A stretch of DNA of 64,000 nt, from positions 1-64,000 of the forward strand of contig CAMOIJ010000002.1 of assembly GCA_946615865.1 (NCBI GenBank). The letters are read 5' to 3'. The position numbers and the translations under genes are program-made. Of this stretch, positions 25,208-41,844 are shown piece after piece. How positions within the stretch are numbered: position 1 is the stretch's first letter; every line of letters begins with the position of its first letter. A model generated the notes under the pieces. It made no database searches. It was not told where the DNA came from and saw only the letters and a list, made by a program, of their open reading frames with translations. Source of the DNA: an uncultured Lachnospiraceae bacterium (lineage in GTDB: Bacteria > Bacillota > Clostridia > Lachnospirales > Lachnospiraceae).

Positions 25208-26080
25208 GTGATCAGAAAAAGATTTGTAAACGCAGGAAGAAAAACTGCCGCAGTGATCCTTGTACTTGCTCTGACAGCAGGTCTTTGCGGGTGCGGGGGA
25301 TCGAAAGACTCGACTGTGAAAGAATCAGCTGAGGAGAGCGCGGCGGCTCAGAGCACAGTGATGGAACCGATCAATCCCGAGGAGGTGAAGTCGGAAGACG
25401 TCATGAAAGAGGAAGAGAAGCCTGCCGAAGCAGCAACGCAGAAGGAGCAGCCGAAGGAAGTGATAGAAAAGCCCGAACCCACCGAGGTGGATCCGGAAGC
25501 AGAAAGAGCGGAAGCTGAGAGAAGAAAAGAAGAAAATGAGAAGAGAAAACAGGATAATACCGCTGCCGTCAACCTTGACGAGGTTCTCGACGGCGTTATG
25601 ACCTTTGACGGAATGCAGCTGGAATTCCCTGTCGATCTGAATTCGCTCAAACTCGGCAAGTGGACGATCACCTATGAGATCGAAGGAAATCCCGGGGATA
25701 AAACCCTGGTGGCTGATCAGGTCGTTACAGCGAAGATGACAAATCCTGACTATACGGACGACGATGTCATTGTTAAGGCTGAGTTCGGAAACTATACCGG
25801 TTCAGAGGCGAAACTGACAGATCTTCCAATGACAGGAATCTATATTACTAAGGGAAAAGGAAAGGACGGGGCGGAGCCCAGGCTTCCCGCGGTAGAACTT
25901 CCCTGCGGTTTCACCTGGGGAACCCCCGAGAGCGAGATCATCGAACAGCTCGGAGAGGCAAGCTTCTCCGGAAGTTTCGATTACGATTTTGATTTTATGT
26001 ACGAAAACGGCAAATATCTGCTGGAACTTGGAGGTATGAGCGACACAGGGCTTGAATATATCGTGTACTCTGTGGAATAA
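25208..26080 (+). CDS. Hypothetical lipoprotein with acidic/Lys-rich linker
   Basis: LTAGLCGCGGSKDS lipobox; E/K/A/P-rich segment; C-terminal globular region. Confidence 0.75.
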   Translation: MIRKRFVNAGRKTAAVILVLALTAGLCGCGGSKDSTVKESAEESAAAQSTVMEPINPEEVKSEDVMKEEEKPAEAATQKEQPKEVIEKPEPTEVDPEAERAEAERRKEENEKRKQDNTAAVNLDEVLDGVMTFDGMQLEFPVDLNSLKLGKWTITYEIEGNPGDKTLVADQVVTAKMTNPDYTDDDVIVKAEFGNYTGSEAKLTDLPMTGIYITKGKGKDGAEPRLPAVELPCGFTWGTPESEIIEQLGEASFSGSFDYDFDFMYENGKYLLELGGMSDTGLEYIVYSVE

Positions 26081-26081
26081 T

Positions 26082-26258
26082 GGGCATAGAGATATCTGAC
26101 AGGAAAGTATTGTCCGACCTGAAAGAGCAGTGAACAGTTTCTATGAAGACAGGTATATGCGAATAAAGCGGGACCTTCCGTTCGCGGAGGGTATCCCTGC
26201 GCGTGTTTTCATGTATACGAGGCTCTTTCACCGGAAGGTGGAAGGGCTTTTTTTATGA
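26082..26258 (+). ncRNA. Putative structured cis-regulatory leader (riboswitch/attenuator) upstream of the nitrogenase-like operon
   Basis: Several complementary segments; accttccg (26173-26180) is complementary to cggaaggt (26232-26239), which lies inside the terminator stem, giving mutually exclusive folds. Confidence 0.4.
26222..26254 (+). terminator. Intrinsic terminator just upstream of the nifH-like gene
   Basis: gctctttcacc-GGAA-ggtggaagggc stem followed by TTTTTTTT, ending about 30 nt before the ATG at 26286. Confidence 0.7.
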
Positions 26259-26285
26259 ACGGGAATATTTTGACAGGAGAGCGCA

Positions 26286-27050
26286 ATGATCAGGATCGCG
26301 ATTTACGGCAAGGGCGGCATAGGAAAATCCACAATGACATCCAATCTGGCGGCGGCTTTTGCCTATCTGGGCAAAAGAGTGATACAGATAGGCTGTGATC
26401 CCAAGGCGGATTCCACCATTAATCTGCTGGGCGGACAGCCATTGCAGCCGGTTATGGATTATCTGCGCGAGAAGGACGAGGAGCCGGAATCCATCGACCA
26501 GATCGCAAAAGAGGGATACGGAGGAGTACTGTGTATCGAGACAGGCGGACCTACGCCGGGACTTGGGTGTGCCGGAAGAGGAATTATCGCGACCTTCAGC
26601 CTTTTGGAGGATCTGAGACTGTTCGAGACTTATAAGCCCGACGTAGTCCTCTATGATGTTCTCGGTGATGTAGTGTGCGGAGGTTTTGCGGCGCCGATCA
26701 GGGAGGGCTATGCCCAGAAGGTGCTGATCGTAACTTCAGGTGAAAAGATGGCTCTCTATGCCGCGAACAATATTTGTACGGCGGTGCGCAATTTCGAGGA
26801 CAGGAGTTACGCCAGAGTCGAGGGCATCATACTCAACAGCAGAAATGTCGAGGGCGAGAGCAGGAAGGTGGAGGAGTTCGCGGAATTAAAAGGGCTGCCC
26901 ATTATTGCCCGCATTCCCAGGAGCGACGATATAATCCGGTTTGAGGATCAGGGAAAGACAGTGATCGAGGGAGATCCTGATCTCTTAGTGAGCCGGTGCT
27001 TTTTAGACCTGGCGAAGAAACTCATTGAACAGGAAAACGCCGGAAACTGA
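26286..27050 (+). CDS. NifH-like ATPase (nitrogenase iron-protein family), cassette 1
   Basis: P-loop [10 protein letters not shown]; cluster Cys motifs GLGCAGRGI and [21 protein letters not shown]. Confidence 0.95.
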
Positions 27051-29611
27051 TGGAGGAGAGAATGAGCGGAGCGATTAGTCATACTGTCAGGGAACTATGG
27101 GAGATGGGAAGGGATAATATCCCACAGGACATGGTGTCTAACTCCCAGCTGATCTACAGTTCCCCGGCCACTCTGGCCTTTAATTCGCCCGGAGCAGAGG
27201 GATTCGGCGTCAAGAGGGCGGGGCTGTCAGTTCCCGGGTCGGTCATGCTGATCGTGTCCCCGGGCTGCTGCGGGAGAAACACCTCCTCTATCAGCACCAT
27301 GAAGGGTTACGAAAACAGATTTTTCTATCTGACTATGGACGAGACGGATCTGATCACCGGAAGACATCTGCGCAGGATCCCTAATGCAGTCTGCGAACTG
27401 GCGGCAGGACTTGGGAAGAAACCTTCCGTGATCATGATCTGCATAACCTGCGTGGACGCTCTCCTTGGAACAGATATGGAGCGTGTATGCAGAAAAGCGG
27501 AGAAGATGGTAAATGAAACTGTACAGGCATCTTCTGACGAGGCGGGATCTTATATCCGGGTCAGGCCGTGTTACATGTACGCGCTGACCAGGGAAGGAAG
27601 AAAGCCGCCCATGGTCCATGTAAGACAGTCCATCTATTCCCTTTTGCAGCCAATCCCCAAGAAATCCGACAGTGTCAATATTCTCGGATATTTCGCCCCT
27701 CTGCAGAAAGATTGTGAACTCAGGGAACTTCTTGGACAGATAGGGGTAAAGCAGATAAGGGAAGTATCCTCCTGCGCAGATTACGCAGAATTCGAGAAGA
27801 TGGCGGAGGCTAACTTCAACCTGATCCTCAATCCCGAGGCCAGACCCGCAGCGGGCGACCTCCAGGAGAGACTTGGAATCCCCTCCATCGAGCTTACAAG
27901 ACTTTATCAGGTCGACAGAATTGCGGCGCAGTATGACGCTTTCGCGGCGGCCCTTGGAGTCAGGTTCGACTACGGGATTTACAGAGAGAAAGCCAGAGCG
28001 GCTATGAAGAGTTTCAGGGAAATTTATCCGGAAGCGGTCTTCAGCGTCGGAGAAGCGGTAAACGCTGATCCTTTCGAACTTGCGCTCGCGCTTGTGCGGT
28101 ATGGTTTCAGAGTAAAAGAGATCTTCGGAACAATTACCGCGGATTCTTACCGCTATATCAGGCATTTGTCCAATCTTAGTCCGGAAACAAGAGTATACTC
28201 GAATCTGTCGCCTTCCATGCTGCTCTACAAAGAGGATTCAGACGAATCTGAAGCTGACAAGGGAGCGCTGCACATAGCTCTCGGCCGGGACGCGGGCTGG
28301 TATCATCCGGATTACCCCTGCCTTCTGTGGGGAGAGGACATTCAGCCCTTTGGTTTTATGGGCGTATGCCGCTTTTTCGAAGCGCTGATGGAGACCGCGA
28401 AGGGAAGAGGAAAAGATCTTTACGGTTCTGCAGTCAGACTGGTCGGCGAATATGGCGTTGACAGGGGGATCGAAGAGATCAGCCGTGAGAGTTCCATGAA
28501 TAGAACAGGGACCGCAGACATGCGGCCTAAGGGATACAGAGAAGTCCTGACGCCTTTTGCCCCTGATCAGTCCGGTGCGGTTTCCGTATTCTACGAACTC
28601 GGCGGAATCACGGTGATATGTGACGCCGGCGGCTGCACCGGCAATATATGCGGTTTCGATGAGCCCCGATGGTTCCGGGAGAGAAGCGCCGTCTTCAGCG
28701 CAGGCCTCAGGGACATGGACGCGATCCTTGGAAGAGATGAGAGACTTGTAAAGAAACTGGCGGACGCCGCCTCTTTACTGTCAGAGGACGGAAATGGAAG
28801 GGCGCCTTCTTTTGCCGCCATTGTCGGGACTCCTGTCCCTGCTGTCATAGGGACAGACTTTCGGGCGCTTGAGAGGATGTCGGAGAAAAAGGCAGGGCTG
28901 CCCTGCATCGGTATTGCCTGCGACGGGATGGAGTTCTATGACAGAGGAGCCGAGAAGGCGTATCTGGCCCTGTTTGAAAAGTTCGCGAAAAAAACAGGAT
29001 GCGGTACCCCGGCGGAGAAAAAAGGCCGTCTGGGTATTCTCGGCGCTCAGTATATGGATCTCGGAGGCATCGCTGATTACGACGCGCTCAGGGAATACGC
29101 GAAAAATGAGAACGGCAGGCAGGCGGTAATATATGGAAGCCGCGCGGATGGAACAGAAGCTTTTGCTGATCCGGCGTCGGTATGTGAGAACCTTGTTGTC
29201 ACAGTTTCGGGATATGAAGCGGCAAAGGCGCTTTTATCAAAATACAGAGTGCCTTTCTCCTGCCGCAACCCTCTTGCGGAGCGTCAGATGCGCAAGATCG
29301 CTGAGAAGAAGCGGGTTACAGGAAGAAAGATCCTGGTGGTGCACGAACAGATCACTGCGAATTCCTGCAGAAAAGCTTTGCGGGAACTCGGAGCAGAAAG
29401 TGTTGACGTTGCCACCTGGTTTATGAAAAAGGATGAACTGAGCGAAGCGGGAGATCTGCGCTTAAGTGAGGAGACAGATTTTGTCCGGGCGGTGCGCTCA
29501 GGAAATTACGACATGATCATCGCGGACCCGGTGATGCTGCCTCTGTTAAAGGGCTGTTATGACGGGGTATTCGCAGGATTGCCGCATTTCGCGGTTTCAG
29601 GGAAACTATGA
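27050..29611 (+). CDS. Nitrogenase component 1-like NifD-NifK fusion (853 aa), cassette 1
   Basis: N-half has SPGCCGRN and CITCVDALLGTDMERVC (NifD-like); C-half YELGGITVICDAGGCTGN...GTPVPAVIGTDF is paralogous to the 36897 ORF. Start overlaps nifH-like stop (tgATGg); alternative start 27062. Confidence 0.88.
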   Translation: MEERMSGAISHTVRELWEMGRDNIPQDMVSNSQLIYSSPATLAFNSPGAEGFGVKRAGLSVPGSVMLIVSPGCCGRNTSSISTMKGYENRFFYLTMDETDLITGRHLRRIPNAVCELAAGLGKKPSVIMICITCVDALLGTDMERVCRKAEKMVNETVQASSDEAGSYIRVRPCYMYALTREGRKPPMVHVRQSIYSLLQPIPKKSDSVNILGYFAPLQKDCELRELLGQIGVKQIREVSSCADYAEFEKMAEANFNLILNPEARPAAGDLQERLGIPSIELTRLYQVDRIAAQYDAFAAALGVRFDYGIYREKARAAMKSFREIYPEAVFSVGEAVNADPFELALALVRYGFRVKEIFGTITADSYRYIRHLSNLSPETRVYSNLSPSMLLYKEDSDESEADKGALHIALGRDAGWYHPDYPCLLWGEDIQPFGFMGVCRFFEALMETAKGRGKDLYGSAVRLVGEYGVDRGIEEISRESSMNRTGTADMRPKGYREVLTPFAPDQSGAVSVFYELGGITVICDAGGCTGNICGFDEPRWFRERSAVFSAGLRDMDAILGRDERLVKKLADAASLLSEDGNGRAPSFAAIVGTPVPAVIGTDFRALERMSEKKAGLPCIGIACDGMEFYDRGAEKAYLALFEKFAKKTGCGTPAEKKGRLGILGAQYMDLGGIADYDALREYAKNENGRQAVIYGSRADGTEAFADPASVCENLVVTVSGYEAAKALLSKYRVPFSCRNPLAERQMRKIAEKKRVTGRKILVVHEQITANSCRKALRELGAESVDVATWFMKKDELSEAGDLRLSEETDFVRAVRSGNYDMIIADPVMLPLLKGCYDGVFAGLPHFAVSGKL

Positions 29612-32028
29612 TCGGAAATACAGAGAAGACGCTGAGGATAAAAGTATACGGAATCGTCCAGGGAGTGGGGTTCAGGCCTACTGTAGCAAGACATGCGGCG
29701 GCGGCAGGGATCAGAGGATCCGTCTGCAATAAAGGTCCTTATGTGGAGATTTTTGCCCAGGGCGGACAGGAGCAGGTAGACTGTTTTTTGAGTCTTCTCG
29801 AAAAGAGACCGCCTGAGAGGGCTGCAGTGCTCAAGATGGACGTCAAAAGCGCGGACAGCACGGAGCTAAGTTTCACGTCTTTCGAGATCATAGAGAGCGC
29901 TAAAACGAAGGGAGAGATCTTTATCTCCCCTGACATAGCGATCTGCGATGAATGCCGTAAGGAATTACTCGATCCGAAAGACAGAAGGTATCTCCACCCC
30001 TTTATCAACTGCACGTGCTGCGGCCCCAGGCTCACGATCCTGGAAGGGCTCCCTTATGACCGGGTCAGAACGAGCATGAAGATGTTCCCGATGTGCCCGG
30101 CTTGTGACAGCGAGTATCACTCCCCAAAGAGCAGAAGATACGATGCCCAGCCTGTTTGCTGCAATGAGTGCGGACCGGAGGTATATCTTGCCGGAGAGGA
30201 ATCTGTCAGGGGAAGTGAAGCGATCACAAGGACCCGCAGGATCATTGCGGAAGGCGGAATCGCCGCGGTCAAGGGCATAGGCGGATTCCATCTGTGCTGC
30301 GACGCGACAAACGAGGAGGCGGTGGCCAAGCTTCGTCTCAGAAAGACCAGGCCGGTTAAGCCCTTTGCCGTAATGATGCGTGACGAAGCGGCAGTGGAGA
30401 GGGAGTGCGAGATCAGTGAGGCTCAAAGAGAGATCCTAACGGGACACCAGAAACCGATCCTTCTGCTGCAGCGCAGGGAAGGAGGCAGGCTGTGTCCGTC
30501 CATTGCGCCCGGAAACCCTACTGTAGGCGTGATGCTTCCATATGCACCGGTGCAGATCCTTCTTTTCGATTATACCGACGGGATCAGTATGCCGGACTGC
30601 CTGGTAATGACAAGCGGCAACGTCTCGGGAGCGCCGATCTGCAGAGATGACAAAGAGGCTCTTTCGGAACTTGGCAGTCTCTGTGACTGTATCCTTTCTC
30701 ACAACAGGAAGATCCGGATCAGGGCGGACGACTCAGTCATGGATTTCTACGGCGGGGAGCCCTATATGATCCGCAGATCCCGGGGATACGCCCCGCTTCC
30801 ATACATGCTCTCAGCGTGGGAGGATAGTGAAAAGGAAGCAGGCGGTACAAGAGTGCTTGCTATCGGCGGCGAGCTGAAGAATACATTCTGTATAGGAACC
30901 GGCAGTCTGTTCTATCCCTCCTCCTATATTGGAGATCTCGCGGACCTTAGAAGCGTGAAAGCCCTGGAGGAGACGACGGGCAGATACGCGAATCTCCTGG
31001 AAGTGACCCCGGAGATCATTGCATGTGATCTCCATCCCAGGTACAACTCGGTAACGACTGCGGTCGAGCTGTCAGAGAAGATCGGAAAAGAGCTGGGAAA
31101 AGGTCCCCTTCCGGTAGTCAGAGTTCAGCATCACTACGCTCATGTCCTAAGCTGCATGGCTGAAAATGACTTCTCGGATCCGGTCATTGGAGTTTCCATG
31201 GACGGGACCGGATACGGGACTGACGGTACTATCTGGGGCGGAGAGATCCTGACGGCGGACTATCACGGCTTTGTCAGGGACGCCAGTATTAAACCTTTCA
31301 TTCAGGTGGGGGGAGACCTGTCCTCCACAGACGGATGGAGGATAGCGGTGTCTATGCTCCACAGTATCAGTATAGAAGAGGAAGAGGAGTCGCCGCTTAA
31401 AGATGCCCTTGCCTTGTCATCAAAACTGGCGCTGTGTACTGATAAGGAGGCTTCAGTGCTCATGAAAATGGCGGACAGAAGACTCAACGCGGTGGTCTCC
31501 ACCAGCGCGGGAAGGCTGTTCGACGCAGTGAGCGCCATATGCGGGATCTGCAGACATTCCACTTTCGAGGGTGAAGCTTCAATGGCGCTGGAATTTGCCG
31601 CAGAACGGTATGAGAAAGCAGTGCCCGGATGCAGAAATGTGGAAAGTACAGCGGATCAGACAATAAAAAAAGAAGAAGGACGCCGGATACTTCCTACAGA
31701 CGAGATTGTAAGAAGAATCACACTCGGAAAACTAAGAGGTGAGGAACCGGATAGTCTTGCGTGGCTCTTTCACAAAATGCTTGCAGACCAGATCATTTCG
31801 GCCTGTGCAGAAATCCGGGAAGAAAAAGGGATACGGGCAGCTGCCCTCAGCGGAGGATGCTTCCAGAACCGCCTGCTTCTTGACATGGTCAAAAGAGGAC
31901 TGGAGGCTGAGGGCTTCGATGTTTTGATCCATCACCTTGTACCTCCCAACGACGGAGGCATAGCGCTGGGTCAGGCGGCAGCTGCGGTACAGGCTGTCCA
32001 TGACGGGAAAGTAAATGTCATCCGTTAG
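29608..32028 (+). CDS. hypF: Carbamoyltransferase HypF
   Basis: Acylphosphatase GIVQGVGFRPTVARHA; zinc fingers CDECRKELLDP.../CTCCGPRLTI.../CPACDSEY.../CCNECGPEV; YrdC region; Kae1-like VRVQHHYAHVLSCMAEN, ALSGGCFQN. ATGA overlap with upstream gene. Confidence 0.97.
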   Translation: MIGNTEKTLRIKVYGIVQGVGFRPTVARHAAAAGIRGSVCNKGPYVEIFAQGGQEQVDCFLSLLEKRPPERAAVLKMDVKSADSTELSFTSFEIIESAKTKGEIFISPDIAICDECRKELLDPKDRRYLHPFINCTCCGPRLTILEGLPYDRVRTSMKMFPMCPACDSEYHSPKSRRYDAQPVCCNECGPEVYLAGEESVRGSEAITRTRRIIAEGGIAAVKGIGGFHLCCDATNEEAVAKLRLRKTRPVKPFAVMMRDEAAVERECEISEAQREILTGHQKPILLLQRREGGRLCPSIAPGNPTVGVMLPYAPVQILLFDYTDGISMPDCLVMTSGNVSGAPICRDDKEALSELGSLCDCILSHNRKIRIRADDSVMDFYGGEPYMIRRSRGYAPLPYMLSAWEDSEKEAGGTRVLAIGGELKNTFCIGTGSLFYPSSYIGDLADLRSVKALEETTGRYANLLEVTPEIIACDLHPRYNSVTTAVELSEKIGKELGKGPLPVVRVQHHYAHVLSCMAENDFSDPVIGVSMDGTGYGTDGTIWGGEILTADYHGFVRDASIKPFIQVGGDLSSTDGWRIAVSMLHSISIEEEEESPLKDALALSSKLALCTDKEASVLMKMADRRLNAVVSTSAGRLFDAVSAICGICRHSTFEGEASMALEFAAERYEKAVPGCRNVESTADQTIKKEEGRRILPTDEIVRRITLGKLRGEEPDSLAWLFHKMLADQIISACAEIREEKGIRAAALSGGCFQNRLLLDMVKRGLEAEGFDVLIHHLVPPNDGGIALGQAAAAVQAVHDGKVNVIR

Positions 32029-32085
32029 TATGTTTCATAAAGATAAAGTATATAAGCGGAGGATTCCGCTCAAGGAGAGGAAATT

Positions 32086-32298
32086 ATGTGTGTAGGTCTT
32101 TCAGCAAGAGTAATCAGGATCAATGAAAACGGAACGGCGCTGGTGGACGCCAGCGGGGCCAGGAGACAGGTCTCCGCACAGCTTTTAGAAGATCTGGAGC
32201 CGGGCGATTATGTCATGGTACACGCCGGCGCGGCGATCTCAAAGATCACAAGCGATGACCAGACGGAGACAGAGGAACTTCTGGAGGAACTGTTATGA
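32086..32298 (+). CDS. hypC: Hydrogenase maturation chaperone HypC
   Basis: MCVGLSARVIRI with catalytic Cys2; GDYVMVHAGAAISKI. Confidence 0.95.
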   Translation: MCVGLSARVIRINENGTALVDASGARRQVSAQLLEDLEPGDYVMVHAGAAISKITSDDQTETEELLEELL

Positions 32299-33356
32299 CC
32301 GTGGACAGAAATGAAGGGTCAAAAAAGAGATCGGCCCTCGATATCATCAGAAACTACAGCGGTCCCGACGTGCGGATCATGGAAGTATGCGGCACTCACA
32401 CCCATGAGATATTCCGTCTGGGGATCAGAAAGATCCTTCCGCCGTCAATACGGCTGATCTCCGGACCCGGATGTCCCGTCTGCGTGACGCCGGTGAGCTT
32501 TATCGATGAGGCAATCATGCTGGCGCTGGATCACGGATGCACGATCTGCACTTTCGGGGATCTTGTCAGGGTTCCGGGAACCGGTTCCAGTCTGCAAAAG
32601 GCCCGCGGCGCCGGCGCAAAGGTTCAGGTAGTATACTCGCCGGCAGATGCGGTGGAGTACGCGGCGAAACATCCGGAAGAACAAGTTGTTTTCCTTTCCG
32701 TCGGTTTTGAGACCACAACGCCTTCCGTATGTCTTGCGGTACAGGCTGCACAGAACGATAAACTGGATAACTTCAGTATTTTGACAGCCAATAAGACAAT
32801 GCCGGGCGCTTATGAAGCAATGAAAGACAGCACTGACTTGTATCTTTATCCGGGTCATGTCCACGCAATTGTCGGAACAGGGATCTGCGAGGACCTGGCG
32901 GCCCGCGGAGTGAGCGGCGTGTGCGCAGGATTTACAGCTTCGGAACTTGTGACCGCTCTGGCAGTCGCTGTCACGAAGTTTGAAAAGGGTGAGCCTTTCT
33001 TTGTAAACTGCTACCCCAGAGTCGTAAGAGCGCAGGGACAGCCGGCGGCAGTGCGGCTGGTGGACTCTATGATGGAGCCCTGCGACAGCGAGTGGAGAGG
33101 GATCGGTGAGATACCGATGTCAGGAATGAAACTGCGGGATGAATACTCGCAGTATGACGCGCGCGTGAAGTTCAGTCTGCCGGAAGTGAAAGGGCGGAGC
33201 AATCCCGCCTGCCGGTGCGGAGAAGTCCTTCAGGGAAAATGTCTCCCTTCCGACTGCAAAGTATTCGGCAAAGTGTGTACGCCCGAGCACCCCGTAGGAG
33301 CCTGCATGGTATCAGGGGAAGGCGCTTGTTCGGCATTCTATCTGTATGGAGGTTGA
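32295..33356 (+). CDS. hypD: Hydrogenase maturation protein HypD
   Basis: EVCGTHTHEIFRLGIRKILPPSIRLISGPGCPVCVTP; C-terminal Fe-S Cys set CRCGEVLQGKCLPSDCKVFGKVC. Confidence 0.97.
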   Translation: MTVDRNEGSKKRSALDIIRNYSGPDVRIMEVCGTHTHEIFRLGIRKILPPSIRLISGPGCPVCVTPVSFIDEAIMLALDHGCTICTFGDLVRVPGTGSSLQKARGAGAKVQVVYSPADAVEYAAKHPEEQVVFLSVGFETTTPSVCLAVQAAQNDKLDNFSILTANKTMPGAYEAMKDSTDLYLYPGHVHAIVGTGICEDLAARGVSGVCAGFTASELVTALAVAVTKFEKGEPFFVNCYPRVVRAQGQPAAVRLVDSMMEPCDSEWRGIGEIPMSGMKLRDEYSQYDARVKFSLPEVKGRSNPACRCGEVLQGKCLPSDCKVFGKVCTPEHPVGACMVSGEGACSAFYLYGG

Positions 33357-33367
33357 AATAAAAGACA

Positions 33368-34378
33368 ATGATCGGTAATAACACAGTTACACTGGCCCAC
33401 GGAGCGGGCGGTAAACAGACATCGGAACTGATCGACCGCGTATTTAAGAGTCATTTCCAAAACCCTCTCTTTACTGCGGATGACGCGGCAGTCATTCAAA
33501 TGGAAAAGGGAAGGATCGCCATGTCCACAGACGGGTTTATCGTATCCCCGGCCTTTTTTGCCGGCGGAAATATCGGTAAGCTCTCGATCTGCGGAACGGT
33601 AAATGACCTCGCATGTATGGGAGCGGTGCCTAAATATCTTACCTGCGGATTTGTCATCGAGGAAGGTTTCCCCATGGACAAGCTCGAGGAGATCGCGGCG
33701 GCAATGGAGAAAACTGCAGCGGAAGCCGGAGTACAGATCGTAGCGGGGGACACCAAAGTTGCAGGAAAAGGACAGGTTGACGGCGTCTTTATCAATACCA
33801 CCGGAGTCGGGATCATCCCGGACGGAGTAAAGACTTCGGGAGCGCTGGCAAAGCCCGGCGATACGATCCTTGTGACCGGTGATATCGGAAGACACGGCTG
33901 CACCATCCTTCTCGAGAGAGATGACTACGGAATCGAGGCGGACGTAACAAGCGACTGCGCGCCTCTGTCCGGAGCTGTTCAGGCCGCGCTGAAGGCGGTA
34001 CCTGAGATTCATGTGATCCGCGATGCAACCCGCGGCGGCGTTGGAACTGTGCTCTATGAGATAGCTGCCCAGAGCGGCGTCGGCGTGAACCTCGATGCGG
34101 GCAAGATCCCGGTGGATCCGGCCGTTAAGGGAGTCTGCGGACTCCTTGGTCTTGAACCTCTGTATCTGGCATGCGAGGGAAGACTTGTTATGGTGTGCCC
34201 CGATGAGAAAGCAGATCTTCTTGCGGAAACCCTCCGAAGCTGCAAATACACAGAAGGGACGACTGTGATCGGCAGGATCACAGAAACTATGCCCGGAAGA
34301 GTGACTATGACGACGGAGATCGGCGCGCAGACTCTTCTTCCGCAGCCCGGCAACGAGCTGCTTCCAAGGATTTGCTGA
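33368..34378 (+). CDS. hypE: Hydrogenase maturation protein HypE
   Basis: VTLAHGAGGKQTSELI; RDATRGGVGTVLYEIA; C-terminal LPRIC with the thiocarboxamide-forming Cys. Confidence 0.97.
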   Translation: MIGNNTVTLAHGAGGKQTSELIDRVFKSHFQNPLFTADDAAVIQMEKGRIAMSTDGFIVSPAFFAGGNIGKLSICGTVNDLACMGAVPKYLTCGFVIEEGFPMDKLEEIAAAMEKTAAEAGVQIVAGDTKVAGKGQVDGVFINTTGVGIIPDGVKTSGALAKPGDTILVTGDIGRHGCTILLERDDYGIEADVTSDCAPLSGAVQAALKAVPEIHVIRDATRGGVGTVLYEIAAQSGVGVNLDAGKIPVDPAVKGVCGLLGLEPLYLACEGRLVMVCPDEKADLLAETLRSCKYTEGTTVIGRITETMPGRVTMTTEIGAQTLLPQPGNELLPRIC

Positions 34379-34399
34379 TAAAACACTAAGGAGACGGCT

Positions 34400-34672
34400 A
34401 TGAGCATAGAGACGAGAGTGGCGGTGATCTCCATCATTGTCGGAAATGAGGACGCCGCGCAGAAGATCAATGAGATCCTTCACGAATACCGCGAATATGT
34501 TATCGGGAGAATGGGTATTCCTTACAGAAGTAAGGGAATCAGCATCATAAGCGTAGCTGTGGACGCTCCCCAGGAGAAGATCAGCGCGCTTTCCGGCAGG
34601 ATCGGGAGGCTCCCGGGGATAAGTGCCAAGACAGCTTATTCCAACGTGATCTCAGAGGTGGAGATAAGATGA
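34400..34672 (+). CDS. TM1266-family iron-only hydrogenase system regulator (ACT-like)
   Basis: 90 aa; RVAVISIIVGNEDAAQKINEILHEYREYVIGRMGIPYRSKGISIISVAVDAPQEKISALSGRIGRLPGISAKTAYS. Confidence 0.88.
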   Translation: MSIETRVAVISIIVGNEDAAQKINEILHEYREYVIGRMGIPYRSKGISIISVAVDAPQEKISALSGRIGRLPGISAKTAYSNVISEVEIR

Positions 34673-36855
34673 TAAGGATAGCATTTTACGGAAAAGGCGG
34701 CATAGGGAAATCGACTACCGTCTCAAATCTGTCTCAGTACTGGGCGAGCCTTGGGATGACCGTCCTGCAGATCGGCTGCGATCCCAAAGCGGATTCCACC
34801 CTGAGCCTGCGGGATGGTAAAAAGATCCCCACGGTCATGGACATGGTCAGAAAACGCGTTCCTTTTGACCTCGAAGACGTTATCTATGTGAAGCATACCG
34901 GCCGCGGCAGGATCATCTGCGCGGAGGCAGGAGGCCCCATGCCCGGAAGAGGATGCGCCGGAAGAGGCATCATCACGGCGCTGGAAACTCTCAGGGATAA
35001 AGATATTTTGTCAAAATACAGCCCCGATGTGATCCTATACGACGTTCTGGGGGATGTAGTATGCGGAGGATTCGCCATGCCCATGAGAGAGGGCTACGCT
35101 GACAGAGTGTACATTCTGACCTCCGGCGAGAATATGGCTATATACGCCGCGGCAAACATCGGCCTTGCGGTGGAAAACTTCAAAGAAAGAGGCTACGCGC
35201 AGCTTGGCGGCCTGATCCTGAACCGCAGGAATGTTAAGCGCGAAGAGGAAAAGGTCCTGGAACTCTCGCAGGATCTTCACACGCAGATCGTCGGAAGTCT
35301 CGACAGATCAGAACTTGTGCAGGAAGCGGAGGAACTGGGTGAGACTGTCATAAGCGCCTTTCCCGAATCCGTCATCGCTGATTCATACAGAGCGCTTGCT
35401 GACAGGATCGCTTCAGACTGCGGGGTAGATTATCCTGTCGCCAAAGATACTCCCGCTCAGACAAACAAAACAGAAATAACCGAAACTTCAAGCGAAGGGC
35501 CTTCCCGGATCCCTGTATCGAGGGCTTCCTTTCCCGCGCCCTTTGTGCAGGAACTGGAGTTTAATCCGCCGGTTCATGAGACCTGGAATATCGTTCATAT
35601 CGGAATGCTGATGCCCCAGGCGCACCAGATCTATATCTGCTCGGACAACTGCATGCGGGGCGTCGTAATGACTGCCGCCGAGATGAACGCCATAGAGCGG
35701 TTCTCCTGTGTAGTTCTTGAAGAGAAAGACATGCACAGTGGAAATCTTGAGGAGATCACCCTGGAGGGAGTCTCGGACGTGCTTCTGAAGATCCGCAGAA
35801 AACGGGGAGAAGAAGGACTTCCAAAAGCAGTCCTGGTATTTCCCGTATGCCTCCATCACTTTATGGGATGCGACCTGGGATATGTATATAAGGAACTGGA
35901 AAAGAGATTCCCGCGGATCGTGTTCATTAAGGGATGGATGGATCCGATCATGCAGAAGACCGGGCCCAGTCCTGACATGAAACTAAGAAAAGCAATGATG
36001 GACATCCTGATGCCCTCTGAGGAAAAAAACGGCCTCTCAGCGCTTATCGGAGACATCTATGCGCTGGATCCGGAGAGCGATCTCATGCGGCTGATCCGCG
36101 CCGCGGACGAAGCGCGGGGGACTGTCTCAACCCCTCTTCAAATTCAGGATTGCGAAACGCTTAAAGAGTATCAGGCTCTCTCAGGCAGAGAAGTATTAAT
36201 AACCAGAAGCCCGATGTCTGCGGTATCTGTTAGGCAGACGGCCCGAAGGCTGGGCTGCAAGGGGCTGTATCTGCCGGCGGTCATGGATTATGCGGGAATC
36301 AGGAAAGAACTTGAGACGGCCGCAGAGGCACTGGGCATAACATCTGAACAGGCAGGCATCAGCTTCGAACAGGAAGAAACGCTGTGTGAAGACGCTCTGC
36401 AGCATCTGCGCGATGTGGTCGGAGATACACCGATCGCGATCGACTATATTGCTGTACAGAGACCCCTTGGGTTTGCAAGACTCCTTCTGGAGAGCGGGTT
36501 TGCGGTCAGGGAAGTATACCTGGACGCGGTGAGCCCCGAAGAAGAGAACGATTTTCTCTGGTTTAAAGAAAACCGCGGCGAAGTACTCCTTTGCAGTACG
36601 ATCCATGTCAAGGGGCGCCTGCTTCACGCGGGAGCCATAGATTCGGAACACAGCGGCTTTTTGGCCGTCGGTCCCAAAGCGGCCTGGTTCTGCGGCACTG
36701 AGCATTTTGTTAATCTCGTTGATTACGGCGGAATGTGGGGGTACAGCGGGATCAGAAAGATGGCTTCTCTTATGGAAGACGCGTTTGAAAACGCAAAGGA
36801 CACCAAAGACCTGGTTCCCAGAAAGGGACTCGGCTGTGAGAGCATTTTGTTCTAA
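34669..36855 (+). CDS. NifH-NifD-like fusion (728 aa), cassette 2
   Basis: N-terminal Nif[43 protein letters not shown]-terminal component-1-like: ICSDNCMRG, FPVCLHHFMGCDLGYVYKELE. ATGA overlap with upstream gene. Confidence 0.88.
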   Translation: MIRIAFYGKGGIGKSTTVSNLSQYWASLGMTVLQIGCDPKADSTLSLRDGKKIPTVMDMVRKRVPFDLEDVIYVKHTGRGRIICAEAGGPMPGRGCAGRGIITALETLRDKDILSKYSPDVILYDVLGDVVCGGFAMPMREGYADRVYILTSGENMAIYAAANIGLAVENFKERGYAQLGGLILNRRNVKREEEKVLELSQDLHTQIVGSLDRSELVQEAEELGETVISAFPESVIADSYRALADRIASDCGVDYPVAKDTPAQTNKTEITETSSEGPSRIPVSRASFPAPFVQELEFNPPVHETWNIVHIGMLMPQAHQIYICSDNCMRGVVMTAAEMNAIERFSCVVLEEKDMHSGNLEEITLEGVSDVLLKIRRKRGEEGLPKAVLVFPVCLHHFMGCDLGYVYKELEKRFPRIVFIKGWMDPIMQKTGPSPDMKLRKAMMDILMPSEEKNGLSALIGDIYALDPESDLMRLIRAADEARGTVSTPLQIQDCETLKEYQALSGREVLITRSPMSAVSVRQTARRLGCKGLYLPAVMDYAGIRKELETAAEALGITSEQAGISFEQEETLCEDALQHLRDVVGDTPIAIDYIAVQRPLGFARLLLESGFAVREVYLDAVSPEEENDFLWFKENRGEVLLCSTIHVKGRLLHAGAIDSEHSGFLAVGPKAAWFCGTEHFVNLVDYGGMWGYSGIRKMASLMEDAFENAKDTKDLVPRKGLGCESILF

Positions 36856-36896
36856 TGCCGGTAATATAACGATATTTTGACCTTCAGGAGGACACT

Positions 36897-38090
36897 ATGC
36901 GACAGGCATACAGAATACTGCCGGTCTACTCCGGGGATGTGTCGGGGGTGTGCTCGGCGCTCTACGAACTGGGCGGAATGGTTGTTATGCACGACCCGTC
37001 CGGATGCAATTCCACATACAACACACATGACGAGACGCGCTGGTACGACCGCGACAGCCTGATCTTTTTATCGGGACTGTGCGAGCCGGACGCGGTTATG
37101 GGAAATGACAGCAAACTCATCGAAGATGTGGTCAGAGCGGCGGGGGAGTTCTCTCCCGGATTCATCGCGCTCTGCAATTCCCCGATCCCCTATCTTACGG
37201 GGACTGATTTCGCCGGGATCTGCAGGATCATCGAGCAAAGGACGGAAATACCGGCGTTCTATATTCCCACCAACGGAATGCATGACTATATAAGCGGAGC
37301 CGGGCTTGCCTTTGAGAAACTGGCGGAAAAACTGTTCGGGGAATCAGGAAGCCATGATACCGTAACCGGGAAATATTCAGCAAAAAACAGAAGCCTCAAC
37401 ATCCTCGGAATGACGCCTCTCGACTATGCCGCAGAGGGCTGTGTTTCTTCCCTTCGCGAGATACTCGAAAAAGGCGGGTGGGAGATCACATCTGTGTGGG
37501 CCATGGGGGACTCTCTTGAAAAACTGAAAAAGGCCGGCGAATCATCGGTCAATCTTGTGATATCCGCTTCAGGCCTTCGCACGGCAGAATTCCTGAGAAA
37601 AAAGTTCGGCACGCCATGGGTGGCGGGCGCACCGCTGGAAAGCATGCGCGGACGGGTGTTAAGGGCCCTTGAGAAAGCAGCCGGGAGCGGAGCCTGCGCT
37701 GCAGCTTATGAGACCTGCGAACGGGCTCTTCAAAGAAAGGCTCAGGTCATCGTGATCGGCGAGCCGGTAATGTCCTGCAGTATCGCGCAGGATTATGAAG
37801 ACAGAGGTTTCAGCACACTCGTGATCGCCGCGACAGAGGAAAGCGGGAAACTGATAAGGCCCGCAGACAGGATCAGCCGGGGAGAAGAGGAAGTTGAAGA
37901 AGCGCTGAATCAGCTCTGCGCGGAGGATACCCTTGTGATCGCTGATCCGCTCTACCGCTATGTGATCCCGGAAGGGACAGCGATGGAGCCTGTACCGCAT
38001 CTGGCTTTCTCAGGACGCATTTACAGAAGCAGCTTTAAAGATCCTTTTGTAAGTTCATGCAGCGGGAAAGGAGACATTGATGAGCCTTAA
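36897..38090 (+). CDS. Nitrogenase component 1 NifK-like protein (397 aa), cassette 2
   Basis: YRILPVYSGDVSGVCSALYELGGMVVMHDPSGCNSTYNTHDETRW...CNSPIPYLTGTDFAGICRIIE; alignable by eye to the C-half of the 853-aa fusion. Confidence 0.87.
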   Translation: MRQAYRILPVYSGDVSGVCSALYELGGMVVMHDPSGCNSTYNTHDETRWYDRDSLIFLSGLCEPDAVMGNDSKLIEDVVRAAGEFSPGFIALCNSPIPYLTGTDFAGICRIIEQRTEIPAFYIPTNGMHDYISGAGLAFEKLAEKLFGESGSHDTVTGKYSAKNRSLNILGMTPLDYAAEGCVSSLREILEKGGWEITSVWAMGDSLEKLKKAGESSVNLVISASGLRTAEFLRKKFGTPWVAGAPLESMRGRVLRALEKAAGSGACAAAYETCERALQRKAQVIVIGEPVMSCSIAQDYEDRGFSTLVIAATEESGKLIRPADRISRGEEEVEEALNQLCAEDTLVIADPLYRYVIPEGTAMEPVPHLAFSGRIYRSSFKDPFVSSCSGKGDIDEP

Positions 38091-39312
38091 CAGTACGCCT
38101 TCAGGCGAGAGAGTTCATATAGGCTTTTTCGGCAGGAGAAATGCCGGTAAGTCCAGTATTGTGAACGCCGTGACCAATCAGGAGATCTCCGTGGTCTCCG
38201 ACGTCAGGGGCACGACGACTGATCCTGTCATCAAATCTATGGAACTTCTGCCCCTCGGGCCCGTGGTGATCATAGATACGCCCGGATTTGACGATGAAGG
38301 GGCGCTTGGTGAGAAAAGAGTGCAGCGGGCCAGACGGGTAATGAACCGCACTGATCTCGCGGTGCTCGTGATCGATGCTCAGACCGGCGCGGCAGAAGCG
38401 GACAGGGAGCTTATATCTCTCTTTGAGGAGAAAGAAATTCCCTATATCGTTGTCTGCAATAAATCCGACCTTTTAGACAATAAAGATACTGTCGAAACTG
38501 AGAAACTCATTCCGGGAATCGAAAATACACAGATCCTGTGTGTCAGCGCCCTGACCGGCGAAGGCATCAATGAGCTCAAGGAGAGGATTGCCGCCCTTGG
38601 CAGAGAGAGCGTCGTGGAAAGACCGCTGATCGGGGACCTGATCGAACCCTCCGAGGTGGTCATCCTTGTGATCCCTATCGATAAAGCAGCTCCGAAAGGG
38701 AGACTGATCCTGCCTCAGCAGATGATGATCCGGGGTATCCTTGATGCGGACGGTATTCCCGTCTGTGTCAAGCAGGACCGGCTTTCTGAACTTCTGAATA
38801 AACTGGAGCGCGGCGGCGCTCAGACAAAGCCCGGACTTGTCATCACCGACAGCCAGGTTTTCGGGGAGGTCGCCAAAACAGTGCCGGCCGACATTCCCCT
38901 TACATCCTTTTCAATCCTCATGGCACGATATAAAGGATTTCTTGATTCTGCCCTGGCGGGAGTGAGGAAGATAGATGATCTGAGGGACGGGGATGTGATC
39001 CTGATCTCCGAGGGATGTACGCATCACAGACAGTGCGGCGACATAGGGACGGAGAAAATCCCCGCCTGGATCAGGAAGAAGACCGGGGCAGATATCCGCT
39101 TTGAGACATCTTCAGGCACCGGTTTTCCCGAGGACCTGAGCAAATACGCGCTGATCATACACTGCGGCGCATGTATGCTTAATGACAGGGAAGTGCGCTG
39201 GCGCATGAAATGCGCCGCGGACCAGGGTATTCCCTTCACCAATTACGGCACCGCGATCGCCTATATAAGAGGTATCCTTGACAGAAGTACGGAAATAGTG
39301 CGCAATGAATAA
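38080..39312 (+). CDS. hydF: [FeFe]-hydrogenase maturation GTPase HydF
   Basis: GFFGRRNAGKSSIVNAV, DTPGFDD, NKSD; C-terminal cluster ligands GCTHHRQCGD and HCGACMLN. TTG (38077) precedes ATG 38080; overlaps nifK-like stop. Confidence 0.96.
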   Translation: MSLNSTPSGERVHIGFFGRRNAGKSSIVNAVTNQEISVVSDVRGTTTDPVIKSMELLPLGPVVIIDTPGFDDEGALGEKRVQRARRVMNRTDLAVLVIDAQTGAAEADRELISLFEEKEIPYIVVCNKSDLLDNKDTVETEKLIPGIENTQILCVSALTGEGINELKERIAALGRESVVERPLIGDLIEPSEVVILVIPIDKAAPKGRLILPQQMMIRGILDADGIPVCVKQDRLSELLNKLERGGAQTKPGLVITDSQVFGEVAKTVPADIPLTSFSILMARYKGFLDSALAGVRKIDDLRDGDVILISEGCTHHRQCGDIGTEKIPAWIRKKTGADIRFETSSGTGFPEDLSKYALIIHCGACMLNDREVRWRMKCAADQGIPFTNYGTAIAYIRGILDRSTEIVRNE

Positions 39313-40444
39313 TCTTTCGAGAATGGAGGAGCTTGTCGGGCTCCTGGAAAAAGAACAGACACTCACGGACAGTGAATTCAGTGAGTTTTTCGATATTTTG
39401 GCAGATTCATGCGGTGAAGACGCGGACAGGCGCGTGCAGATCCGGGAAGAGATCCCGGCAGCCAGGTGCACACAGGAAGAGGCAATCCTTTACGCCGCCG
39501 CGCGAAGAGCGAGAGAGAAATATTACGGCAGCGACGTCTATCTCAGGGGACTGATCGAGTTTACGAACTACTGCAGAAACGACTGCAAATACTGCGGGAT
39601 CCGAAGAAGCAACCGGAATGTACAGCGCTACAGGCTCAGCAAGGAACAGATCCTTCTGTGCTGTGAACAGGGATATTCCCTGGGCTTTCGGACCTTTGTG
39701 CTTCAAGGCGGCGAGGATCTTTATTTCACGGATGATATGATATGCGGAATCGTTGCGGCTATTAAAGAGCGATATCCCGACTGTGCCGTGACTTTGTCCA
39801 TCGGAGAGAAGAGCAGAGACTCCTATAAGGCGTATTATGATGCCGGCGCGGACCGCTACCTTCTCAGGCAGGAGACATCAGATCCTTTGCACTACCGATA
39901 TCTTCATCCGCAGGAACTGAGCATTGAAAACAGAAAGAGGTGCCTTTCCGATCTAAAAGAGATCGGCTATCAGGTGGGCTGCGGCATCATGGTGGGATCC
40001 CCCGGTCAGACCAGGGATCATGTGATGCAGGATCTTCGATATATGAAGAAGTTCAGGCCCCATATGGTCGGGATCGGGCCCTTTATCCCCCACAAGGACA
40101 CGCCTTTCGCGGGAGAGAAGGCGGGAAGTCTGTATGATACCCTGCATCTTCTCGCGGTGATCAGGCTGATGATGCCTGATGTGCTGCTCCCTGCCACCAC
40201 AGCGCTGGGAACCATTCATCCGGCCGGAAGAGAACTCGGTTTTCTTGCAGGCGCGAATGTTATCATGCCCAATCTCTCTCCGGGAGACGTCAGAAAGAAG
40301 TATTTGCTGTATGACGGCAAAATTTGTACTGAGGACGAGGCGTCCGCCTGCGGAAGGTGCATTGAGCTCAGAGTGCGCAAAGCCGGATGCAGGGTAGTGT
40401 ACAGCAGAGGAGATTTTGCGGGATTCAAGGTCCGCGGACAATAG
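39305..40444 (+). CDS. hydE: [FeFe]-hydrogenase maturation radical SAM HydE
   Basis: Radical SAM CRNDCKYCGIRRSNRNVQRYRLS; auxiliary cluster motif CTEDEASACGRC (Cx7Cx2C); overlaps hydF by 8 nt. Confidence 0.95.
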   Translation: MNNLSRMEELVGLLEKEQTLTDSEFSEFFDILADSCGEDADRRVQIREEIPAARCTQEEAILYAAARRAREKYYGSDVYLRGLIEFTNYCRNDCKYCGIRRSNRNVQRYRLSKEQILLCCEQGYSLGFRTFVLQGGEDLYFTDDMICGIVAAIKERYPDCAVTLSIGEKSRDSYKAYYDAGADRYLLRQETSDPLHYRYLHPQELSIENRKRCLSDLKEIGYQVGCGIMVGSPGQTRDHVMQDLRYMKKFRPHMVGIGPFIPHKDTPFAGEKAGSLYDTLHLLAVIRLMMPDVLLPATTALGTIHPAGRELGFLAGANVIMPNLSPGDVRKKYLLYDGKICTEDEASACGRCIELRVRKAGCRVVYSRGDFAGFKVRGQ

Positions 40445-40479
40445 AAGATGAACGTATAAAACAAAGCGGAGGACTTAAA

Positions 40480-41844
40480 ATGGAATACAGGATCGAACAC
40501 GACTCAATGGGCGAGATGAAGGTGCCGGCAAATTGCTATTGGGGAGCCCAGACACAGAGAAGCTATCAGAATTTCCGCATCGGAACGGAAAAAATGCCGG
40601 TGGAGATCATCCGCGCATTCGCGGTGCTCAAAAGAGCAGCGGCTATGGCCAACTGCAGGCTCGGGAAACTGGACGAGAAGAGATGCGCCCTGATCGCGCA
40701 AGTATGTACTGAAATAATCGAAGGGAAACTCGGCGGTGAGTTCCCCCTTGCAGTCTGGCAGACAGGCAGCGGCACGCAGTCCAACATGAATGTCAACGAA
40801 GTCATCGCCAACAGAGGAAACGCTATTGCCGGCGCGAAACTCCTGCATCCCAATGATACAGTAAATATGTCTCAGAGTTCTAATGACACATTTCCCACTG
40901 CAATGCACATCGCGGCTGTGACAGCTCTGGAGCATCAGCTCATTCCTGCCCTGGACGCGATGATCGTTGAGATGAAGAGGCTGGAGAAGGAGAACGAAGG
41001 GATTGTCAAGAGCGGACGCACGCATTTACAGGACGCAGTACCGATCGGTTTCTCTCAGGAGATCAGCGGCTGGAGGGCAATGCTCGAGAAGTGCCGGGAA
41101 ATGATCCGGGATTCTGAGAAGGGGCTGAAGGAACTGGCCCTTGGAGGAACCGCAGTCGGCACAGGCCTCAACGCGCCTGAGGGATTTGCGAAGGAAGCAG
41201 CCGCGGCTGTATCTGAACTCACCGGATTTGATTTCATAACTGAAGACAACAAATTCCACGCTTTGTCCTCTAAAGACGCTGTAGTATTCTCACACGGAGC
41301 TCTCAAGGCGCTTGCCGCCGATATGATGAAAATAGCGAACGACGTGAGATGGCTGGCAAGCGGCCCGCGCTGCGGCATCGGGGAGATATTTATCCCGGAG
41401 AACGAGCCCGGAAGCTCTATCATGCCCGGCAAAGTCAATCCCACTCAGTGTGAAGCCGTGACAATGGTCGCAGTGCAGGTGATGGGAAATGATACTGCTG
41501 TAGGGATCGCTGCATCACAGGGAAATTTCCAGCTAAATGTATTTATGCCGGTTATAATTTACAATTATCTGCAGTCGGTCAGGCTCCTTTCGGATGTTCT
41601 CAATTCCTTCCGCACAAACTGCGTGTGCGGGATCACTGCAAACAGAGAGAAGATGAGTCATAATCTCCACAATTCGCTGATGCTCGTGACGGCGCTCAAT
41701 CCCTATATAGGATATGAGAACTCGGCGAAAACAGCCAAACTGGCTTATAAAGAGAATATTTCTCTCAAAGAGGCCTGCGTAAAACTCGGATTCCTCACAT
41801 CGGAGAAATTCGACGAGGTATTTCATCCGGAGCAGATGGTCTGA
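40480..41844 (+). CDS. fumC: Class II fumarate hydratase
   Basis: AVWQTGSGTQSNMNVNEVIANRG and GSSIMPGKVNPTQCEA; the latter favours fumarase over aspartase. Start chosen at ATG after ggagg. Confidence 0.9.
   Translation: MEYRIEHDSMGEMKVPANCYWGAQTQRSYQNFRIGTEKMPVEIIRAFAVLKRAAAMANCRLGKLDEKRCALIAQVCTEIIEGKLGGEFPLAVWQTGSGTQSNMNVNEVIANRGNAIAGAKLLHPNDTVNMSQSSNDTFPTAMHIAAVTALEHQLIPALDAMIVEMKRLEKENEGIVKSGRTHLQDAVPIGFSQEISGWRAMLEKCREMIRDSEKGLKELALGGTAVGTGLNAPEGFAKEAAAAVSELTGFDFITEDNKFHALSSKDAVVFSHGALKALAADMMKIANDVRWLASGPRCGIGEIFIPENEPGSSIMPGKVNPTQCEAVTMVAVQVMGNDTAVGIAASQGNFQLNVFMPVIIYNYLQSVRLLSDVLNSFRTNCVCGITANREKMSHNLHNSLMLVTALNPYIGYENSAKTAKLAYKENISLKEACVKLGFLTSEKFDEVFHPEQMV

Follow-up and report, generated by a model that had tools for sequence, protein, structure and literature searches.

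Locus and Leader Architecture

The window analyzed here is a 64,000-nt stretch from an uncultured Lachnospiraceae bacterium in which nitrogenase-like genes (26286–41844) are interleaved with hypF, hypC, hypD and hypE, a TM1266-family gene, hydF, and hydE, forming a candidate HydG-independent pathway of H-cluster assembly (Table 1). The operon start at 26286 is separated by an intergenic gap of 205 nt (26081–26285), correctly sized at about that length in an earlier note drawn up from the letters alone, from the end at 26080 of a lipoprotein-like gene (25208–26080). The latter has no Pfam match and adjoins the operon only in nearer relatives; a weaker relative is present in L214. The last gene of the cluster resembles the aspartate ammonia-lyase reported to be linked to H-cluster assembly (PMC11736057) in that it adjoins hyd genes but differs in scoring as a fumarase.

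The gap holds an intrinsic terminator with a 14-bp stem and a GGAA loop (−20.6 kcal/mol), just 5′ of the ribosome binding site (RBS). The earlier note had recognized this hairpin, although its T run counts seven rather than eight. The fold of the entire leader is more stable than that of shuffled sequence (z −2.8). A predicted sigma-A promoter overlaps the 3′ end of the lipoprotein gene, placing the transcription start at ∼26088. Directly 5′ of 45 leaders, promoter-like scores average 15.9 versus 13.4 ± 0.23 for shuffles, which places the conserved element described below near the transcript start.

Table 1. Features of the leader and the downstream operon (window coordinates)
Feature	Position	Strand	Remarks
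Predicted sigma-A promoter	26052–26081	+	−35 TTGAAT 26052–26057, 18 nt, TG-extended −10 AATAAT 26076–26081
Conserved regulatory hairpin	26096–26129	+	CUGA-CAGG-AAAG-UAUUGU-CCGA-CCUG-AAAG(AGCA)
Core helix P1	26100–26121	+	26100–26103 (CAGG) with 26118–26121 (CCUG); CURA/RARG-type internal loops on both sides
Switching tail AAAGAGC	26122–26128	+	common to aptamer base and antiterminator
UUCG-capped spacer hairpin (earlier note)	26171–26199	+	inside the nonconserved spacer
Intrinsic terminator	26219–26254	+	stem-loop 26219–26250, T run 26248–26254
Antiterminator partner GCTCTTT	26222–26228	+	within the terminator 5′ arm
Shine–Dalgarno AGGAG, first operon gene	26275–26279	+	by inspection
NifH/CfbC-like ATPase	26286–27050	+	first controlled gene
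Fused NifD/K (NifE/N)-like protein	27050–29611	+	853 aa
HypF	29608–32028	+
HypC-like ORF	∼32029–32294	+	after HypF
HypD	32295–33356	+	above curated cutoffs
HypE	33368–34378	+	above curated cutoffs
TM1266-family iron-only hydrogenase system putative regulator	34400–34672	+	TIGR03959, E 1e-33; relative 2NZC
Second nitrogenase-like pair	34669–38090	+	NifH-NifD-like fusion and NifK-like
HydF	38077–39312	+	TIGR03918, above cutoff
HydE	39305–40444	+	TIGR03956, above cutoff
Class II fumarase/aspartase-superfamily lyase	40387–41844	+	last cluster gene; best score FumC

A Conserved, Covarying Hairpin

Leaders gathered through orthologues of the first operon gene within the genus are almost wholly unlike one another, save for one block at the 5′ end (CTGACnGG...), with a terminator usually lying 37–230 nt further on. 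The upstream genes also differ among congeners, except in nearer relatives, so the conservation is not explained by the upstream gene. The block corresponds to an element of ∼34 nt kept before the nitrogenase-like operon in 24 congeneric genomes. A covariance model recovers a single strong copy in 24/24 of these, always before this operon, with E values of 2e-11 to 4e-8; the next match, roughly five orders of magnitude away, is at 2e-3. Within the window, model R3 matches at 26091–26130 (49.1 bits, E 1.9e-10), the runner-up reaching only E 0.8. By inspection, G036 (L059) carries a divergent form before the operon, and no element was recognized before the operon in G072.

The core consensus reads 5′-CURA-[4 nt]-RARG-loop-CURA-[4 nt]-RAAG-3′ and describes a nearly 2-fold symmetric hairpin: a four-pair helix with like purine-rich internal loops on either side, which may adopt a tandem G·A geometry. 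The upstream aptamer suggested in the earlier note survives as this hairpin, whereas the second of the pairings it had proposed there (acctgaaag...acaggt) is not conserved.

Conservation and covariation in homologous leaders, to which the earlier note had looked for a verdict, were both found. Of the proposed cells, 92.5% are paired across 45 sequences, compared with 20–50% in slid control structures. Double-change cells number 55 versus 19.0 ± 3.8 after shuffling (0/500 shuffles), a strong result that is not to be read as a probability, the shuffle control ignoring relatedness. In the same sequences, P1 columns 12–32 appear as GC, AU, CG, and GU, and columns 14–30 as GC, AU, CG, and UA. Later leaders, found with the 45-sequence model and standing outside its covariation count, add the P1 types UGGG/CCCA, UUGC/GCAA, and CGCC/GGCG, as well as U–A as the first pair. 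The P2 pairs of the first two models (15–26 and 16–25) were superseded by 17–27 and 18–26 once wider sequences were added. Elements of the nifH type from other genera and families (L137, L143, L147, and L097) have P1 columns 12–32 mismatched, as G·G or G·A, and may constitute a subtype.

Distribution and Gene Context

Scans of the Clostridia and the Bacillota place the element before H-cluster genes in 37 of the 39 confident matches with a readable downstream gene, the contexts counted being hydG, hydE, hydF, TM1266, aspA-hydF, or the nif-like/hyp/hydEF operon. Downstream genes were assigned by sequence similarity and inspection of translations, those of the window by curated models. In the family scan, the downstream gene was hydG twice, nifH-like twice, and TM1266 once, with weaker matches amounting to coding-region noise. 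The Clostridia scan (E ≤ 0.003, self-matches excluded) returned 23 non-self matches, located 5′ of hydG (12), the TM1266 gene (4), nifH-like genes (3), hydE (1), and aspA followed by hydF (1); the remainder comprised one contig end (L127) and one clear false match (L145). The 17 non-self matches of the Bacillota scan, spread over many families of the phylum, precede hydG (7), the TM1266 gene (5), hydE (3), and hydF (1), with one false (L237). Many sampled genomes gave no match under the strict filters of these large scans. Weak covariance-model matches lying inside coding regions (L090, L101–L103, L121, L123, L145, and L237) were discarded by inspection. Two genomes carry two copies: G1212 has one 5′ of the TM1266 gene and one 5′ of hydG, and G658 has a second, weaker copy 5′ of the TM1266 gene.

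As judged from gene context, the regulon of the element is predicted to be H-cluster assembly of [FeFe]-hydrogenase. The guess of a metal, cofactor, or redox metabolite as the sensed signal, made in the earlier note, can be narrowed to match. A common switch would join hydG, hydE, hydF, the TM1266 gene, aspA, and the nif-like operon into one regulon, would give a handle on what cells sense while building [FeFe]-hydrogenase, and would suggest a role for the unexplained TM1266 family.

Predicted Coupling of the Hairpin to Gene Expression

The element tail (26122–26128) and the terminator 5′ arm (26222–26228) are complementary. Among 31 leaders, the summed duplex energy of each tail with its own arm is −283.0 kcal/mol versus −208.9 ± 12.4 kcal/mol with arms permuted (0/20000); among 18 more distant leaders, the values are −159.1 and −111.4 ± 9.7 kcal/mol (0/20000). 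The test was run without L100, L129, and L147, owing to a mismatch of pattern or position, and the terminator arm of L230 was assigned by hand. Own-arm energy is unremarkable in L131, L142, L143, L146, and L236. The partner sequences change together, as in L228 (GAAGGGAC/GTCCCCT), L225 (GAAGGAAG/CTTTCTTCC), and L230 (AAAGGAAGTTAG/CTAACTTTCC). Between element and terminator lies a spacer of 14–230 nt whose sequence is unrelated among orthologues, and nearly all congeners have a terminator at this position.

Computed folds in which the tail resides in the hairpin or on the terminator arm are mutually exclusive. The principle of exclusive terminator and antiterminator folds thus stands as put forward in the earlier note, with covariation assigning the pairing to 26122–26128 and 26222–26228 rather than to the bases chosen there. 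For nascent RNAs of the window ending at 26228–26240, the antiterminator is the minimum free energy structure; its advantage over the fold that retains P1 amounts to 2.8 kcal/mol at 26234. The terminator prevails after its 3′ arm is complete, and the full window leader favors the terminator fold (−58.1 versus −53.4 kcal/mol), so that antitermination would need to be kinetic.

A different platform occurs in 18 hydG leaders, which are without a terminator. Here, the tail leads directly into a Shine–Dalgarno-like AAAGGA, with the purine run within the tail and the start codon 13–20 nt past P1. Since the terminator and Shine–Dalgarno arrangements share one logic, a tail held in the hairpin would correspond to the gene being off.

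Proposed Switch and Alternatives

We consider it likely, at a probability of roughly 80%, that the leader is a cis-acting RNA switch of H-cluster assembly genes. Sensing would fall to the short 5′-proximal hairpin, in which P1 is flanked by the purine-rich CURA/RARG internal loops. An effector stabilizing this hairpin would cause it to retain its 3′ tail, leaving the terminator arm free to fold into the intrinsic terminator, and transcription would end short of the nif-like/hyp/hydEF operon. Without such stabilization, the tail would pair with the emerging 5′ arm, the terminator would be delayed or prevented, and the operon would be transcribed. In other Bacillota, where the tail abuts the Shine–Dalgarno sequence of hydG, effector binding would instead block translation. 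The OFF direction of switching and its kinetics are presumed from the folds described above.

Several simpler readings of the leader were weighed. The terminator might merely end the lipoprotein transcript, with the operon using a promoter of its own and the conserved element being unrelated. In its favor are the strength of the terminator and the shared orientation of the upstream gene and the operon. In many lineages whose upstream genes differ, however, the terminator is preceded by a predicted promoter and the element and followed by the gene, and the covariation of tail and terminator arm opposes a purely upstream role. A promoter downstream of 26254, the option raised in the earlier note, is also not in evidence: none that is convincing is visible before the RBS at 26275, and the promoter-like sites lie 5′ of the element. 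We regard this reading as improbable. Equally little credence attaches to the antiterminator proposed earlier, in which 26173–26180 pairs with 26232–26239. The complementarity is genuine (a perfect 8 bp, −12.0 kcal/mol, with a chance of ∼1.6% that some such 8-mer arises) and is kept in the closest orthologues, but it is weaker in L038 and missing from most other congeners, in line with the nonconserved spacer. Moreover, the same bases first form a very stable local hairpin (−16.7 kcal/mol), the stem ccttccg-TTCG-cggaggg that the earlier note had itself pointed out. From these comparisons, the pairing appears to be a lineage-specific complementarity. Least credible of all is a leader-peptide attenuator: the spacer holds a 7-codon ORF (ATGAAGACAGGTATATGCGAATAA), but by inspection no good RBS precedes it, its stop codon is gone in L038, and more distant congeners do not have it, and the hydG leaders are too short for any such ORF.

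A weightier alternative is that a protein binds the hairpin, most likely the TM1266-family regulator whose gene lies within or close to these operons and which would thereby govern its own regulon through attenuation and repression of translation. Of the element-bearing genomes examined, nearly all contain TM1266, and in at least 10 the element lies before the TM1266 gene itself. The protein is a small lone domain related to 2NZC; the near 2-fold symmetry and small size of the hairpin are features suited to a dimeric binding partner. Against this, TM1266 was not found in G065, G494, and G668, though these genomes are 84, 97, and 93% complete and hence not conclusive, and we found no evidence of RNA binding by the family. 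We hold the protein reading to be a reasonable possibility that falls well short of even odds. At L214 (G065 C2), the operon is intact on its contig minus TM1266 and the second NifH domain, and the element and terminator are retained.

The effector of the cis-acting switch may be a compound made or consumed during H-cluster assembly that the RNA itself binds. We judge direct binding by the RNA somewhat likelier than recognition through a protein such as TM1266, and direct small-molecule binding by the predicted switch, taken alone, is slightly favored. Metabolite riboswitches are seldom as small as a ∼34-nt hairpin lacking both junction and pseudoknot, a form that would suit a protein. With ligand binding putative, the element is classed as riboswitch-like and not as a riboswitch proper. 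The full proposal, in which a new Bacillota-wide riboswitch class has as its direct ligand a small molecule or a metal complex from H-cluster assembly and here controls a HydG-free route, with nitrogenase-like and Hyp proteins supplying the iron-CO/CN unit to HydE/HydF, is tentative and somewhat less than an even bet.

Relation to Known Systems

None of the 4227 families of Rfam 15 matches over the element at gathering cutoffs, in the window or in related leaders, or anywhere else in the window, in keeping with the failure of the earlier note, which had suggested such a scan, to recognize a known class. A permissive scan of the window leader gave chance-level eukaryotic matches only, with no plausible subthreshold bacterial match. 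The element was likewise undescribed in the literature searched, where subscription papers and preprints were thinly covered, so that absence is not proof. Its general kinship is with metabolite riboswitches: a covarying 5′ domain, a tail common to that domain and the antiterminator or Shine–Dalgarno sequence, one domain on two platform types, and a one-pathway regulon. It differs in consisting of one ∼34-nt hairpin, which has internal loops but in which no junction or pseudoknot was detected, and in having no Rfam 15 match. PyrR-type and ribosomal-protein leader attenuators share the small hairpin with conserved internal-loop purines 5′ of a terminator, but they show no match at gathering cutoffs; one leader gave weak subthreshold alignments to PyrR and the L10 leader, no better than chance. 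Moco, NiCo, cobalamin, SAM, and other curated metal or cofactor riboswitches also control cofactor-related genes, but none match over the element, the only gathering match being a cobalamin riboswitch at L129. Regulation of hydG is known from Caldicellulosiruptor, where it is controlled by Rex (PMC6391272); that regulator is a DNA-binding transcription factor rather than an RNA leader, and the report makes no mention of a riboswitch.

The earlier assignment as a regulated terminator/antiterminator leader of unrecognized class is upheld: conservation of the element does not depend on the upstream gene, the hairpin covaries, and so do its tail and the arm of the terminator. The element is a genuine and conserved cis-regulatory RNA belonging to the H-cluster assembly regulon, uncatalogued in Rfam 15 and in the literature searched; neither yielded a case of control of H-cluster assembly at the RNA level.

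HydG and the Nitrogenase-like Operon

HydG is absent from all operon genomes examined, namely those of this genus, G315, G458, and, in another family, G763, G611, and G780; the absence is genus-wide, operon-less members included, and represents only ∼4 independent lineages, with G000 88% complete. The sole matches to HydG queries in these genomes are ThiH-like proteins of ∼30% identity. HydG is present in all genomes whose element precedes hydG, and the HydA catalytic domain is present in the operon genomes tested. No [NiFe]-hydrogenase large subunit was detected in G000 and most other operon genomes, some having only a partial match of ∼70 residues to it. Because HypC–F occur without a [NiFe] enzyme and adjoin HydE and HydF, the gene content suggests that Hyp and nitrogenase-like proteins may replace HydG as the source of the Fe-CO/CN unit, and the switch offers regulatory evidence for the operon doing the work of HydG. 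A HydG-replacing nif-like operon is not described in the literature searched, with its thin coverage of subscription papers and preprints. Other explanations of HydG absence exist, since TM1266-first genomes of family f47 (G610, G588, and G535) also have HydA with no HydG detected.

Six congeners (G004, G014, G027, G075, G078, and G006) contain TM1266 and a HydA-type domain and neither HydG nor a close relative of the nifH-like operon gene. In the three f47 genomes, the element and a terminator lie 5′ of a divergent TM1266 gene, after which an ECF-S-like membrane protein is encoded (L129, L130, and L138), and in G588 and G535 a HydA gene is located immediately upstream. The G610 locus L129 additionally carries the cobalamin riboswitch (RF00174, 1553–1732, E 2.6e-30), separate from the new element.
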